This document shows, piece by piece, positions 6,619 through 61,674 of a stretch of DNA of 64,000 bases. Both the position numbers and the translations under genes were made by a program. Within the stretch, counting starts at the first letter, position 1. Every line of letters starts with the position of its first letter. The notes below the pieces were generated by a model. It ran no database searches and was not told where the DNA came from. It was given only the letters and a program-made list of their open reading frames with translations. The DNA comes from Bacteroidota bacterium (GTDB taxonomy: Bacteria > Bacteroidota > Ignavibacteria > UBA10030 > UBA6906), in NCBI GenBank assembly GCA_019637975.1, contig JAHBUR010000002.1, forward strand, positions 124,001 to 188,000, written 5' to 3'.

Positions 6619-7160
6619 TATCTCACCCCTTCAGGGTGATGTGGTGGTGCTCGTATTTCCTGTCTTGGGACTTCGTCCCAAGCTATAGTATCTGACCCCC
6701 GCTAAAAGGTAAGGCACGGCGGGCAAGCCGTTGGGGTCGGATAAGGCAGCGGGTTTTGGATGACCAGCCTGTTGTGGGACGGAGTCCCGAGCTACAGCTT
6801 GTAGCGCGATTCTCCTGAATCGCCCCTTGCGCAAGTTCAGCCCCAACGGGGCGGGATATTATAGCCGGGGACGAAGTCCCCGGACAACATCATAAGAGAA
6901 ACATTCCCACAACCCTGAAGGGGTTGGATACCATCAGCGGTATCTCACCCTTTCGGGGTGATGAGATCGTTCTTCTGTTTTACTGTCTTGGGACTTCGTC
7001 CCAAGCTATAGTATCTGACCCCCGCCAAACCGCCAAAAAAGATCGGCGGTCAGGAAGGTAAGGCACGGCGGGCAAGCCGTTGGGGTCGGGCGCGGATGGC
7101 CTCGTGGCTTTGCAATGCCTGATGGGGGACGGAGTCCCGCGCTACAGGTTGAAACGCGGA
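6619..7160. repeat. two tandem units of a composite palindromic repeat
   Basis: Each unit is a string of small perfect palindromes in fixed order: CACCC-TTCA-GGGTG; TTGGGACTTCGTCCCAA followed by GCTATAGTATCTGAC; GGGACGGAGTCCC; GCCCCAACGGGGC; CCGGGGACGAAGTCCCCGG followed by ACAACATCATAAGAG; CAACCCTGAAGGGGTTGG. Unit 1 is 6619-6948 and a shortened unit 2 runs from 6949 to about 7160. The same string recurs at 9539-9960. Stop codons in all frames make coding unlikely. The spacers are conserved as well as the arms, so this is a dispersed repeat family and not chance hairpins. Confidence 0.75.
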
Positions 7161-7191
7161 TGGCGGCAGAACCCTCATCTGCACATCATCG

Positions 7192-7517
7192 GTAGAGACG
7201 ACCCGGCGGGTCGCCTCTACGCATTACCGGAAAGGCGATGTTGGTGTCACGAAATGCCTGCCCGCCTCCGGCGGGGTACCTGCACAGGGCAGGCGGGCGT
7301 AACACCCGGGTTAAAGAATTCAAGGGTTCTTACCTAACGAGAGGACACGCCGGAGGCGTGTCCCTACCAACCCATTTTTTGTAGGGACACGGCTCCGCTG
7401 TGTCCGACGGTTTTCTTGGTCGTCATGGAACATTCCATGACGACAAACTGCGCAATGCTGAGTTGTCTCGGAGAAGCGCTTTCGGTGTCACGGAATGGAT
7501 CGTGACACCGGGTTAAA
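7192..7517. repeat. cluster of distinct palindromic repeats
   Basis: Five separate palindromes lie in this stretch. They are GTAGAG-x-CGACCCG with its complement (7192-7220); a GTGTCACG...CACCCGGGTTAA unit around GCCTGCCCGCC (7244-7313); GGACACGCC/GGCGTGTCC plus GTAGGGACACGG (7343-7405); the perfect palindrome CGTCATGGAA-CA-TTCCATGACG (7421-7442); and GGTGTCACG...CGTGACACC (7484-7509). Close relatives of the last two occur side by side again at 13025-13137. No gene is supported here. Confidence 0.65.
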
Positions 7518-29446: not shown

Positions 29447-29476
29447 AAAGGCTAACACGACTGTTAGCCTTTCTGT
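29447..29476 (+). terminator. Rho-independent terminator
   Basis: A perfect 11-bp stem AAAGGCTAACA / TGTTAGCCTTT with loop CGAC, then TCTGT. It starts two bases after the DUF4412-like stop and is the best terminator in the window. Confidence 0.85.
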
Positions 29477-29561
29477 ACCAAAGGAGGGACTCCCCGAACG
29501 CAGAGCGTTCGGGGTAAACGAACCTTTACCCCGACACAGTCGGGGCTCACCCGGTTTAGGC
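29475..29561 (-). pseudogene. tRNA-Leu 3' remnant interrupted by palindromic insert
   Basis: Read on the reverse strand, GCCTAAACCGGGTGAG (29561-29546) and GAGTCCCTCCTTTGGTAC (29492-29475) are identical to the variable arm and the T-arm/acceptor 3' end of the intact tRNA-Leu at 29902-29987. Between them lie 53 bases (29493-29545). The tRNA's own GGTTC is retained in the middle, flanked by hairpins (CCCCGAC/GTCGGGG; GGGGTAAA/TTTACCCC; CCGAACGC/GCGTTCGG). The stop codon of the GIY-YIG gene (29556-29558) lies inside the remnant. Confidence 0.8.
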
Positions 29562-29852
29562 TGTCTTTGATGCGATGACCTGTTCCAAAAACCTATGGCC
29601 GGGACCGCTTTTGAGGAACTGTTCTCTTCGTCTGGCTTCGGAACCTGATGGCACTTGTTCAGAGTAGACAAGTACAAAAGGGCGGCGGTGACGGGTTGAA
29701 AATGTTTTGCCGGAATTGTGCTCATTAATCCGCCGCTCGAAATCAGATGTCATGCCAATGTAGAGCTTATGGTCTTTGAGCGACCGAAGAACGTAAACCG
29801 TATATGAGGTACTTTTCTGCAGGTTGGTGGGGAATACTGATTCTTCATCCAC
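29556..29852 (-). CDS. GIY-YIG nuclease of the URI/UPF0213 type, downstream of tRNA-Leu
   Basis: A 98-residue protein with GTG start at 29852. Single catalytic domain: TSYTVYVLRSLKDHKLYIGMT (GIY-YIG as VYV-10-YIG), catalytic-type Arg in FERRINEHN, then TRHRRPFVLVYSEQVPSGSEARRREQFLKSGPGHRFLEQ with the family's Glu helix. Length is normal for stand-alone URI proteins. The last residues (KTA-stop) are encoded by sequence copied from the tRNA-Leu variable arm. Such nucleases nick DNA; here the placement between an intact tRNA and a tRNA remnant suggests a homing or insertion function. A second homologue stands next to tRNA-Ser at 60816. Confidence 0.85.
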   Translation of the reverse strand: MDEESVFPTNLQKSTSYTVYVLRSLKDHKLYIGMTSDFERRINEHNSGKTFSTRHRRPFVLVYSEQVPSGSEARRREQFLKSGPGHRFLEQVIASKTA

Positions 29853-29856
29853 GCCG

Positions 29857-29888
29857 AGGCCCGCCCCGATTTTGGTTCGGGCGGGCCT
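29857..29888 (-). terminator. terminator-like hairpin after tRNA-Leu
   Basis: AGGCCCGCCC-GA, loop ACCAAAA, TC-GGGGCGGGCCT on the reverse strand, 14 bases after the tRNA 3' end and 5 bases before the GIY-YIG start codon. No long T run follows, so it may equally be one of the palindromic repeats. Confidence 0.45.
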
Positions 29889-29901
29889 GTCGGAGCGTAC
29901 G

Positions 29902-29987
29902 TACCAAAGGAGGGACTCGAACCCTCACCCGGTTTAGGCCGGACTGGATTTTGAGTCCAGCGCGTCTACCAATTCCGCCACTTTGGC
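29902..29987 (-). tRNA. tRNA-Leu (anticodon CAA)
   Basis: An 86-base class II cloverleaf on the reverse strand: acceptor GCCAAAG/CTTTGGT, anticodon stem CTGGA/TCCAG around loop CTCAAAA (anticodon CAA, reads UUG), long variable arm GTCCGGCCTAAACCGGGT, T arm GAGGG-TTCGAGT-CCCTC. The 3' CCA is not encoded (discriminator A, then CGT). A sigma70-like promoter lies immediately upstream. Confidence 0.93.
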
Positions 29988-59370: not shown

Positions 59371-60444
59371 ATGAAATTCACATCAGACATCTTTTTCATC
59401 TCGCTGATTCTCCTGTCAATGCTCGTCGGATGTCAGGAGAAACCGCCTTTGTTGGAGCCGGTTTCTGATACGGTGTTCGATACCGCGTATGTCGAACTGA
59501 CTCCGGGCTTCAGCGGCTTTACAAGGCCTGAGGATATTCTCATCGGCAACGATCAGTTGCTGTATGTCGCCGACACGTATGGCGAGGAATCTGGACGTAT
59601 CGTGATGATGAACAGGGCGGGACAGATTCTAGGCACGAAAGCGATGCTGCGACCGATGTCGATTGCGCAAGATAGCCGGCTTGATCTTTTAGTGGGGGGA
59701 ATGGTTGTTGCGGCCAACGGCGACAGTGTCGGGGCTGTATTCCGGATTCATCTTGTCGAAGTACAGCATCAACTTGATCAGGCGCGGGTTGATACGATCT
59801 GGAGAGAACTTGCACGCCCGGCACGCCGTTTTCCCGGGATTACCGTGTTCGGCGACAACACGTATCTCGTTGTTCGAGACGGCCCCGATAATTCGAGTTT
59901 CATTGACCCCGATGCCCTCGTTCTGCAGTTCGACAAGAATGACCGTTTCGTTACTCCGGTAGCGTCGTTAACGACCCGCTCGGGAAGCGGCATCACGGAT
60001 ATCTTCCGGCCGACTGCCATTGCGTCGTTTACCGGTTCGAGAGACTTCATCATAGCACAGCAACAGAGTTTTGTTTCGTACGGGGCGCTATGGATGATCT
60101 ATCAGAATACGCCCGAGTTTGAAGGCTGGCTGCCGAGGTTCGATCCTGCCCGTACCGCCGACAGGGGCGTTGATTTCATCAGGCCGAACCGCTACAGCTA
60201 CCCCTCAGCCGTTGCCATCGACAGAACACGACGGGATGTTTTTGTGGCCGATGCTGATCTCGACAGTGTCTTCAAGTTCAACAGTCGCGGTACGTTCAAA
60301 GTGGAATCATTCGGAAGAGCGAAGTCCGGCGGCTCCATGGTGCGGCCTACCGGTCTTGCATACTTTGAAAGGGTCCTGTACGTGCTTGACGGCGACAGGG
60401 GAGAAGTTCTGCGCTTCCGCTTGACGACGGATGTGCAGCGATAA
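59371..60444 (+). CDS. lipoprotein with NHL-like beta-propeller
   Basis: 357 residues, 3 bases after the PorV-like gene. Lipobox MLVGCQEK. The body is NHL/6-bladed propeller-like: FTRPEDILIGNDQLLYVADTYG, GRIVMMNRAGQILG, FRPTAIASF, YSYPSAVAIDRTRRDVFVADADLDSVFKFNSRG, MVRPTGLAYFERVLYVLDGDRGEVLRFRL. Such propellers bind proteins or glycans. Last gene of the six-gene operon; ends 56 bases before the tRNA-Ser region. Confidence 0.8.
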   Translation: MKFTSDIFFISLILLSMLVGCQEKPPLLEPVSDTVFDTAYVELTPGFSGFTRPEDILIGNDQLLYVADTYGEESGRIVMMNRAGQILGTKAMLRPMSIAQDSRLDLLVGGMVVAANGDSVGAVFRIHLVEVQHQLDQARVDTIWRELARPARRFPGITVFGDNTYLVVRDGPDNSSFIDPDALVLQFDKNDRFVTPVASLTTRSGSGITDIFRPTAIASFTGSRDFIIAQQQSFVSYGALWMIYQNTPEFEGWLPRFDPARTADRGVDFIRPNRYSYPSAVAIDRTRRDVFVADADLDSVFKFNSRGTFKVESFGRAKSGGSMVRPTGLAYFERVLYVLDGDRGEVLRFRLTTDVQR

Positions 60445-60499
60445 ACTGCTTGCAAAGAGTCTCTGTTTTTCCTAAATTCATTCGGTTTTTATCATGTTC

Positions 60500-60611
60500 G
60501 GAGAGGTGGGTGAGTGGCCGAAACCAGCGGTTTGTCCGTCCCGTTCGATGGTCAAGCTTAGGAACGGGACGAGATCTCGTCACGCAAGGCGTGACGGACT
60601 AAACCGCCGTA
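60500..60611 (+). pseudogene. broken tRNA-Ser copy with palindrome in the anticodon loop
   Basis: Bases 60500-60534 are identical to the first 35 bases of the intact tRNA-Ser (60667). A 64-base palindromic insert (60535-60598, beginning TCCGTC and ending GACGGA) sits between TTTG and CTAA of the anticodon loop. CTAAACCGCCGTA (60599-60611) then resumes the tRNA. The variable arm is lost; CCAAGAGTTTAATTTT just beyond looks like a decayed T arm. Not functional. Confidence 0.85.
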
Positions 60612-60666
60612 TGGTCCAAGAGTTTAATTTTAAGAAGCGAGATTTTCCAGTTCATTGTTTCATTTC

Positions 60667-60759
60667 GGAGAGGTGGGTGAGTGGCCGAAACCAGCGGTTT
60701 GCTAAACCGCCGTAGGGTGTAAAACTCTACCGAGAGTTCGAATCTCTCCCTCTCCGCCA
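60667..60759 (+). tRNA. tRNA-Ser (anticodon GCT)
   Basis: A 93-base class II cloverleaf with encoded CCA: acceptor GGAGAGG/CCTCTCC, D arm GAGTGGCCGAAACC, anticodon stem CGGTT/AACCG with loop TGCTA region (anticodon GCT, reads AGC/AGU), variable arm GTAGGG-TGTAAAA-CTCTAC, T arm GAGAG-TTCGAAT-CTCTC, discriminator G. A strong terminator follows. Broken copies lie on both sides. Confidence 0.95.
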
Positions 60760-60766
60760 CAATGGG

Positions 60767-60798
60767 AGTCCCAACCCTGTAGAAGGGTTGGGACTTTT
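60767..60798 (+). terminator. Rho-independent terminator of tRNA-Ser
   Basis: AGTCCCAACCCT (60767-60778), loop GTAGA, AGGGTTGGGACT (60784-60795), then TTT. Perfect 12-bp stem. Confidence 0.9.
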
Positions 60799-60815
60799 AA
60801 TTTGGAGGTTGCTTG

Positions 60816-61139
60816 ATGGCGTATCATGTATACATTTTGTTTTCACGTCTGCATGAGCGGACGTATGTGGGTCAGACAGAAGACCTGGAAAACCGTGTCC
60901 GGCACCATAATGCAGGGCGAGTGCGGTCGACGAAAGCCTACCGGCCTTGGGAGGTTCTGCACAGCGAATCCTACTCGACACGCGCTGAAGCAATGCAACG
61001 GGAGCAATGGTACAAGAGTCCGCAAGGGAGAAGGGCATTGAAAGAGCTTCTCTCTCGGGCGATTGCCTCCAGCGGTTTGTCCGTCCCGTTCGATGGTCAA
61101 GCTCAGGAACGGGACGGGATCTCGTCACGCAAGGCGTGA
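60816..61139 (+). CDS. GIY-YIG nuclease of the URI type, downstream of tRNA-Ser
   Basis: 107 residues from ATG 60816 (TTTGGAGG nine bases upstream). Catalytic core: AYHVYILFSRLHERTYVGQTEDLENRVRHHNAGRV, then STKAYRPWEVLHSESYSTRAEAMQREQWYKSPQGRRALKELL. It is homologous to the protein at 29556. The C-terminal ~24 residues are atypical: from codons AGC GGT TTG on, the frame reads a tRNA-Ser fragment and then the 64-base palindrome, stopping at the palindrome's TGA. Without the palindrome the frame would end at a TAA in the tRNA variable arm. Probably a nuclease of a selfish element targeting tRNA-Ser. Confidence 0.85.
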   Translation: MAYHVYILFSRLHERTYVGQTEDLENRVRHHNAGRVRSTKAYRPWEVLHSESYSTRAEAMQREQWYKSPQGRRALKELLSRAIASSGLSVPFDGQAQERDGISSRKA

Positions 61140-61308
61140 CGGACTAAACCGCCGTAGGGTGTAAAATCCGTCCCGAAGTGATGTACCAGTGTATCGGGGC
61201 GGGATCTGCCGGGTGGATCTTTGTTAGGGACTCTACCGAGAGTTCGCCGTCCCGTACACGGGACGAGCCTCGATCCCAATCGGGATCGGGAATCTCTCCC
61301 TCTCCGCA
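61069..61308 (+). pseudogene. tRNA-Ser 3' remnant interrupted by three palindromic inserts
   Basis: The tRNA-Ser sequence from CCAGCGGTTTG to CCTCTCCGC is present in order but split. Insert 1, 61080-61143 (64 nt), lies in the anticodon loop at the same position as in the 60500 copy and is 62/64 identical to it. Insert 2, 61167-61230 (64 nt), lies at the edge of the variable-arm loop, after TGTAAAA. Insert 3, 61247-61290 (44 nt), lies in the T loop, TTCG|AAT. All tRNA segments between inserts match the intact gene. The first 71 bases overlap the end of the nuclease gene. Confidence 0.88.
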
Positions 61309-61674
61309 AGACTACGCCCCGCCAAAAAACGGCGGGGCTTCGTCCTGCTGGCAGCCTGTGTTCCCGTCAAAAGGCGAATGCGGGCGTAGTCAGCATAACC
61401 GACGAAGCCGCTTCTCAGGCGCAGTCGATCTCTCCCTCTATAGCAAGGCAACGCCCTGCGAGAAAACGGCAATGCCTTGTCTTTCGGGCATACGGCAGGC
61501 ATTGAGCTTGCCTTTTCCTTTTCCCTTCCTCCCATAATTCCAAGCGACGGCGGTCACATTTTTTGGCAGGGGCTTTGTGTTTCAAGGGTTTTTTTCTCAT
61601 TTTTGTCTCGGGGTTTACACACTTCGCTCTCCGTCAACATTGGTCGCAGAACACATTTGAACACATTCAGTGGT
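61309..61674. other. gene-free stretch with palindromes and a second tRNA-Ser tail fragment
   Basis: GCCCCGCC/GGCGGGGC (61316-61338) is a perfect hairpin. ATCTCTCCCTCT at 61428-61439 repeats the tRNA-Ser T-stem/acceptor tail seen at 61292-61303, and both are followed a few bases later by GCAAG. AGGCAACGCC/AATGCCT-type inverted arms follow (about 61446-61505). No credible protein gene; possible short frames are compositionally repeat-derived. Confidence 0.5.

Follow-up and report, generated by a model that had tools for sequence, protein, structure and literature searches.

The window, a stretch of 64,000 nucleotides of DNA from a Bacteroidota bacterium, contains at 60390-61430 two hairpin-interrupted pieces of a tRNA-Ser(GCU) gene on either side of an intact tRNA-Ser(GCU) gene and a gene for a small GIY-YIG nuclease, and the question is how this arrangement arose. 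Probably, a resident tRNA-Ser(GCU) gene was split by a chromosomal, tRNA-specific, free-standing GIY-YIG homing cassette that supplied a replacement tRNA, the hairpin insert at the split (E1) most likely serving to block recutting.

Anatomy and history of the tRNA-Ser(GCU) locus

The comparison within the genus covers three genomes: the window genome, G001 and G002. The features of the locus are:

60390-60499, + strand: native upstream flank of the tRNA-Ser locus (window 60390-60521 versus G001, 85% over 132 bp)
60500-60534, + strand: 5' part of the resident tRNA-Ser(GCU), nt 1-35 (35/35 identical to the intact gene)
60535-60598, + strand: 64-nt insert E1, which splits the anticodon after its first base and folds as a double hairpin (-34.8 kcal/mol)
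60599-60615, + strand: 5' fragment, tRNA nt 36-52 (16/17 identical)
60616-60666, + strand: 51-nt spacer that separates the 5' fragment from the intact tRNA
60667-60759, + strand: intact tRNA-Ser(GCU) with encoded CCA (ARAGORN; Rfam 55.7 bits)
60768-60801, + strand: terminator-like hairpin and T run 3' of the intact tRNA (read from the sequence)
60816-61139, + strand: GIY-YIG nuclease ORF, domain at about 60819-61064 (Pfam PF01541, E 1.3e-15)
61069-61079, + strand: 3' fragment, tRNA nt 25-35 (11/11)
61080-61143, + strand: second copy of E1 (62/64 identical to the first)
61144-61165, + strand: 3' fragment, tRNA nt 36-57 (22/22)
61166-61229, + strand: E2, insert in the variable-arm loop (spliced alignment and fold)
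61230-61245, + strand: 3' fragment, tRNA nt 58-73 (16/16)
61246-61289, + strand: E3, double-hairpin insert in the T-loop, TTCG^AA (spliced alignment and fold)
61290-61307, + strand: 3' fragment, tRNA nt 74-91, without encoded CCA (18/18)
61308-61365, + strand: native downstream flank (terminator) of the tRNA-Ser locus (61290-61365 versus G001, 91% over 76 bp)
61396-61430, + strand: probable relic of a different GIY-YIG gene, matching the 3' end of a G001 GIY gene (94% over 35 bp)

Within 60500-61307, ARAGORN and Rfam detect the intact tRNA alone, which is the single full-length match in the genome and the only intact copy found. An interrupted tRNA-Ser lies upstream of it, as an earlier note on this DNA had claimed, but it stops at tRNA nt 52 and is a 5' part rather than a complete copy. 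The two 64-nt copies that the note had placed at 60535-60598 and 61080-61143 were recovered (two matches versus 0 expected in shuffles), differ at 2 of 64 positions and interrupt the tRNA at the identical site, between nt 35 and nt 36 (TTTG^CTAAA), with no alternative placement. The insert, described as a palindrome, does fold, but as two adjacent hairpins; the duplication, put at about 88 bp, is present but is 92 nt long and 97% identical, the repeated block (60524-60615 and 61069-61160) comprising tRNA nt 25-52 plus E1. Because the copies of E1 differ at so few positions and the adjoining tRNA at only 1 of 28, they have one shared origin. The 3' end of the nuclease ORF runs into the 3' tRNA fragment and E1. 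Compared as a possible nuclease relic or promoter copy, the spacer at 60616-60666 shows weak matches to GIY gene ends and no significant similarity to the native flank (92 of 1000 shuffles were equally good). The GIY-YIG gene whose end is matched by the probable relic at 61396-61430 is intact downstream of tRNA-Ser in G001 (L079).

The anticodon loop, in which E1 lies, is the usual position of bacterial tRNA introns, and this would suit a reading in which the interrupted tRNA is functional and E1 is an intron or is otherwise removed. That reading is scarcely credible: E1 is 64 nt long, Rfam finds no group I intron or other intron over the window, both fragments are incomplete tRNAs, and an intact copy exists. 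The locus is also unlike the islands that integrate at tRNA genes, as no integrase adjoins the tRNA among the neighbouring proteins searched.

In G001, the match to window 60390-60521 consists of the upstream flank and first tRNA nucleotides, the match to 61290-61365 consists of the 3' end and 3' flank of an intact tRNA, and the two bracket one intact tRNA-Ser(GCU); the fragments in the window are therefore the two halves of one resident gene. The earlier note had read them so and had pointed to the flanks at 60500 and 61308, which in G001 both border a single intact tRNA-Ser locus. Its identification of the newcomer as tRNA plus nuclease also agrees with the comparison, the tRNA 3' flank and the nuclease DNA being absent from both congeners. 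Beyond the congeners, the other genomes of the order give just two matches to this DNA, of about 70% over roughly 110 bp; a search of 98 genomes of the order for the donor of the cassette identified none, the best DNA matches (about 70%) being in family f6. A CCA end is encoded by the intact tRNA-Ser(GCU), is absent from the 3' half and from the tRNA-Ser(GCU) genes of G001 and G002, and is encoded by 2 of the 37 tRNAs read in the window genome. Taken alone, CCA is a modest sign of a newcomer, since one substitution could create it, but CCA together with the foreign flank fits arrival from outside. The native flanks have diverged by 9-15% between the window species and G001, compared to which the 97% identity of the 92-nt duplication implies that the duplication is younger than the split of the two species. 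G001 and G002 each have a dead 5' fragment of their own just upstream of the intact tRNA, the two being partly alike, and so the locus has been struck on more than one occasion, with a layered history beyond one event.

The earlier note also took the resident gene to carry E1 already when the intact tRNA and the nuclease were inserted, duplicating about 90 bp including E1. This order requires a single insertion event, and it accommodates the near-identity of the two copies of E1, both bordered by tRNA nt 25-52, as well as the flank synteny that identifies the fragments as halves of a single gene. However, it calls for a second functional tRNA-Ser(GCU) beforehand: the relatives have one functional tRNA-Ser(GCU) apiece, and interruption of the resident gene by E1 would thus be lethal unless a replacement were already there, and the resident was probably the sole functional copy before arrival. 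Furthermore, the same fragment ends recur in one-sided cassettes, in which the 5' remnant extends to about nt 42-52 or the 3' remnant begins at about nt 23-25, and in three of these (L059, L128 and L135, from other families but with the same nuclease lineage) an E1-type insert is located exactly between nt 35 and nt 36; thus, a target-site duplication is not needed to account for the overlap. The prior interruption of the resident gene is accordingly not well borne out, and this order of events is unlikely. Given the probable lack of a second functional copy and the shared junctions of the one-sided cassettes, E1 is placed with or after the cassette: it is more likely that E1 came with the cassette, or that it entered one remnant later and was converted into the other.

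The nuclease and its relatives beside other tRNA genes

The nuclease is encoded by its own open frame, outside any Rfam intron in the window, and consists of a single catalytic domain of about 80-90 aa, with no other domain recognised and no obvious DNA-binding domain; residues Y6, Y17, G19, R27, H31 and E63 are invariant in the five small GIY-YIG copies of the window genome. The group I intron endonuclease model matches it far below cut-off. The closest solved sequences are the UPF0213 proteins BH0048 (E 5e-13) and EF2693 (E 7e-11), followed by SLX1; UPF0213 and SLX1 relatives are structure-specific rather than long-site nucleases, and to our knowledge small GIY-YIG proteins of these types have not been recognised as tRNA-associated mobile genes. 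The nuclease gene sits at its putative target, splitting the tRNA-Ser gene and missing from the intact allele of relatives. A phage origin was considered and rejected, as a tblastn comparison of the window nuclease with 50,697 phage records yielded no match at 1e-5. In PHROG it likewise lacks a match at E<=0.01, and two of its relatives match PHROG homing endonuclease families weakly.

All five small GIY-YIG genes of the window genome adjoin tRNA genes, namely Ser(GCU), Leu(CAA), Ser(GGA), Pro(UGG) and Cys, and small GIY-YIG genes are present in 46 of 60 genomes of relatives. Across the order, 106 of 119 such genes (sampled by best score, not exhaustively) are within 450 bp of a tRNA, for which the chance expectation is estimated at <1% (about 43 tRNAs in 4.25 Mb); in all 106 cases the two genes are on the same strand, with the tRNA upstream of the nuclease in 55 and downstream in 51. 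Many of the 13 without a near tRNA are close to contig ends. A further, phylum-wide set gave 27 of 31 GIY-YIG genes near a tRNA, all on the same strand. Named records with the arrangement come from Ignavibacteria, a Melioribacter MAG, Flavobacteriaceae, Crocinitomicaceae, Rhodohalobacter, Cloacimonadota, Magasanikbacteria and Omnitrophota, of which a few could be misassigned by MAG binning. The tree of the nucleases, although built from few columns and with many weak forks, tracks the tRNA anticodon, requiring 40 changes versus 79.9 when shuffled (0 of 200 shuffles were as low), and the window nuclease clusters with Ser(GCU) nucleases from other families (support 93), some of them being those with E1-type inserts at the anticodon site (L059, L128, L135). 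The tRNA-Ser locus is thus one of a recurring class of loci in several bacterial phyla. In open-access texts, no description of bacterial tRNA-adjacent GIY-YIG genes or of tRNA-loop palindromes was found, an absence that is weak evidence.

Tandem units are present in three single-contig genomes, as tRNA-(GIY-remnant) repeated five times at 450 bp and four times at 322 bp, and as (remnant-GIY)-tRNA repeated three times at 323 bp. Contigs often stop at tRNA/GIY-YIG loci in many relatives (e.g. G013:C43, G043:C15, G049:C13), which suggests that tandem arrays are collapsed or broken in draft assemblies and hence undercounted. Clusters of tRNA genes recombine readily, and plain tandem duplication of the tRNA followed by decay, with the GIY-YIG gene as a bystander, might leave dead copies of the kind seen here. 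The earlier note had named tandem copies without a nuclease in a relative as the observation that would tell against insertion, and G002 partly provides it, with several dead tRNA-Ser copies and no nuclease within 3-5 kb; these copies are hairpin-studded too, so it is equally likely that a nuclease once present was lost and that the copies arose by plain duplication. Considering the invariably shared strand, the tRNA-specific nuclease lineages and the usual position of the nuclease between tRNA and remnant, a bystander role is very improbable.

A second cassette in the window is arranged as follows:

29475-29987, - strand: second cassette, at tRNA-Leu(CAA)
29901-29987, - strand: intact tRNA-Leu(CAA)
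about 29559-29807, - strand: GIY-YIG gene
about 29475-29561, - strand: 3' remnant

The stop codon of this GIY-YIG gene falls inside the hairpin-studded tRNA-Leu remnant, which has one hairpin in the T-loop. The cassette is orthologous in G001 (L049), where the hairpin stems are kept and the loops differ.

Hairpins within and beyond tRNA remnants

On the opposite side of most nucleases there is a remnant that matches the neighbouring tRNA at 97% of positions (3726 of 3845 in all), the nuclease usually being between the intact tRNA and the remnant. Inserts in the remnants were located with a purpose-written spliced aligner, for which the minimum is about 5 nt in a block and 8 nt in an insert. 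Of 120 inserts, 84 lie in the D, anticodon or T loop regions (assigned by position, not fold), which make up about a third of the tRNA. In the 75 remnants with inserts, the insert nearest to the nuclease side is separated from it by a median of 11 nt of tRNA (IQR 9-14), a distance that probably marks the nuclease cut. In 17 remnants no hairpin was detected, and thus a hairpin is not obligatory.

Two types of hairpin element recur. The 30-nt type consists of two hairpins, TNNGCC-nna-GGCNNA and TNCGCC-tnn-GGCGNA, with 98.2% of cells paired, double changes in 23 cells versus 7.8 when shuffled, and a covariation of 0.284 versus 0.075 when shuffled. Beyond tRNA loci, the number of its copies in a genome ranges from 0 to about 36, in most cases versus 0-2 control matches, and they lie at sites that resemble TTC^GAA, some of them inside other palindromes. 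A scan of 60 genomes for E1-type hairpins gave 21 sites, spread over 11 of the genomes, and the control gave none. In the window genome, there is no other full-length copy of E1, which rules out a genome-wide REP repeat as its sole source. The earlier note had offered a strictly specific insertion site as one explanation of the shared junction: the nuclease lineage is indeed tRNA-specific, but E1-type inserts are also present in a D-loop and at non-tRNA sites. Both types are found away from tRNA genes and in some cases inside other palindromes (L218, L236, L243, L244), which indicates that they are dispersed elements, concentrated in tRNA remnants.

Several other occurrences were recorded. Apparent coding sequences contain 30-nt double hairpins, which are 10 codons long (L206, L208, L211, L213, L222), recalling palindromic elements that insert in genes. 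In G052, six copies of one E1-type hairpin lie within a larger palindromic repeat (GATTCCCGA...TCGGGAATGAC; L234, L241, L245, L247-L249), and the copies are most similar across the surrounding repeat. In the window genome, nested palindromes near a contig start, outside any recognised tRNA (L003, C4:400-1000), include an E1-type second hairpin at C4:650-680. In the window itself, short palindromes and repeats, including a repeated GGCAAGCCGTTGGGGTCGG motif, cluster at 6700-7500 around a match to the Acido-Lenti-1 RNA (6839-6883, minus strand).

The dispersed copies, and the hairpin-studded tRNA copies of G002 that have no nuclease nearby, are consistent with hairpins that are unrelated to the nuclease, namely non-autonomous mobile repeats that favour stem-loops and are harmless in dead tRNA copies. 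This is a serious competitor of the blocking role, although the less probable of the two, as it does not account for the narrow distance of about 11 nt between the nearest hairpin and the nuclease side or for the tendency of insert type to follow the tRNA/nuclease lineage. The numbers of nucleases and 30-nt hairpins per genome are also correlated (Spearman 0.65 in 60 genomes), a value inflated by relatedness and by the hairpin copies inside remnants; within families the correlation is significant in f3, marginal in f5 and f6, and not significant in f1, the family of the window genome. A broader proposal, that each tRNA-specific nuclease lineage has its own hairpin that marks or blocks the cut site, the two forming a mobile system spread by homing across several phyla, is more doubtful still and is advanced tentatively.

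Proposed order of events and significance

In the favoured model of a homing cassette, the nuclease would recognise a cassette-free tRNA gene and cut at or close to a loop, in this case that of the anticodon, and the break would be repaired from a cassette-bearing copy, by which the host would gain an intact hybrid tRNA and the nuclease gene. The displaced parts of the resident gene would persist as fragments on the 5' side, the 3' side or both sides, and E1 at the split point would most likely prevent recutting of the remnants; from one remnant it would be copied into the other via the tRNA sequence that they share. One point against the model is that the nuclease should also be able to cut the intact tRNA gene; this probably remains weakly cuttable, which would give rise to tandem arrays of cassettes. 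Also against the model are the lack of an obvious DNA-binding domain in the nuclease, the structure-specific nature of its closest solved relatives, the remnants in which no hairpin was detected, the layered history of the locus, the spacer at 60616-60666 and the failure to find a donor in the 98 genomes. The tandem units of the three single-contig genomes are what would be expected if the intact tRNA is occasionally recut, as has been seen experimentally with phage SegB.

SegB of T-even phages is a free-standing GIY-YIG homing endonuclease whose gene adjoins tRNA genes; it cuts within tRNA-containing sequence and thereby, through homologous recombination, drives the amplification in tandem of the tRNA together with its own gene (PMC13096335). 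The loci described here resemble SegB in having a GIY-YIG gene beside tRNA genes and in forming comparable tandem arrays, but they are on bacterial chromosomes, encode a single domain of about 80-90 aa in lineages that follow tRNA species, and have split and replaced tRNA genes with hairpin inserts. In fungal mitochondria, at atp6 of Allomyces (ORF360) and among the mobile ORFs of Rhizophagus, a nuclease ORF enters a gene and brings a substitute for part of it, by which the native end is displaced; these elements occupy mitochondrial protein genes rather than bacterial chromosomal tRNA genes, and replacement of the gene end is common to both. The double-hairpin elements of Allomyces mtDNA (Paquin et al. 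2000, cited in PMC4478555) and the GC clusters of yeast mitochondria are short, GC-rich palindromes with the behaviour of mobile elements, and the yeast clusters merge and shuffle. Compared to these, the present elements are on bacterial chromosomes, include a 30-nt family of fixed architecture with covarying stems, and are concentrated in tRNA remnants that adjoin nucleases. Rickettsia palindromic elements are short bacterial palindromic repeats able to insert in genes; their size, sequence and host differ from those of the elements described here, and we know of no tie between them and tRNA-adjacent nucleases.

Among the targets that bacteria offer, tRNA genes rank with the most conserved, and the route of exploiting them that is known to us is based on integrases. 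If the model is correct, a minimal nuclease (about 85 residues) has time and again colonised tRNA genes of many different kinds in Bacteroidota, Cloacimonadota, Omnitrophota and candidate phyla with neither integrase nor intron, replacing essential genes as it did so. This would account for puzzling tRNA pseudogenes and duplicated tRNA arrays, would constitute a natural collection of GIY-YIG nucleases sorted by target, and would offer a bacterial setting in which to test the origin of short double-hairpin repeats, which have long been unexplained in fungal mitochondria.
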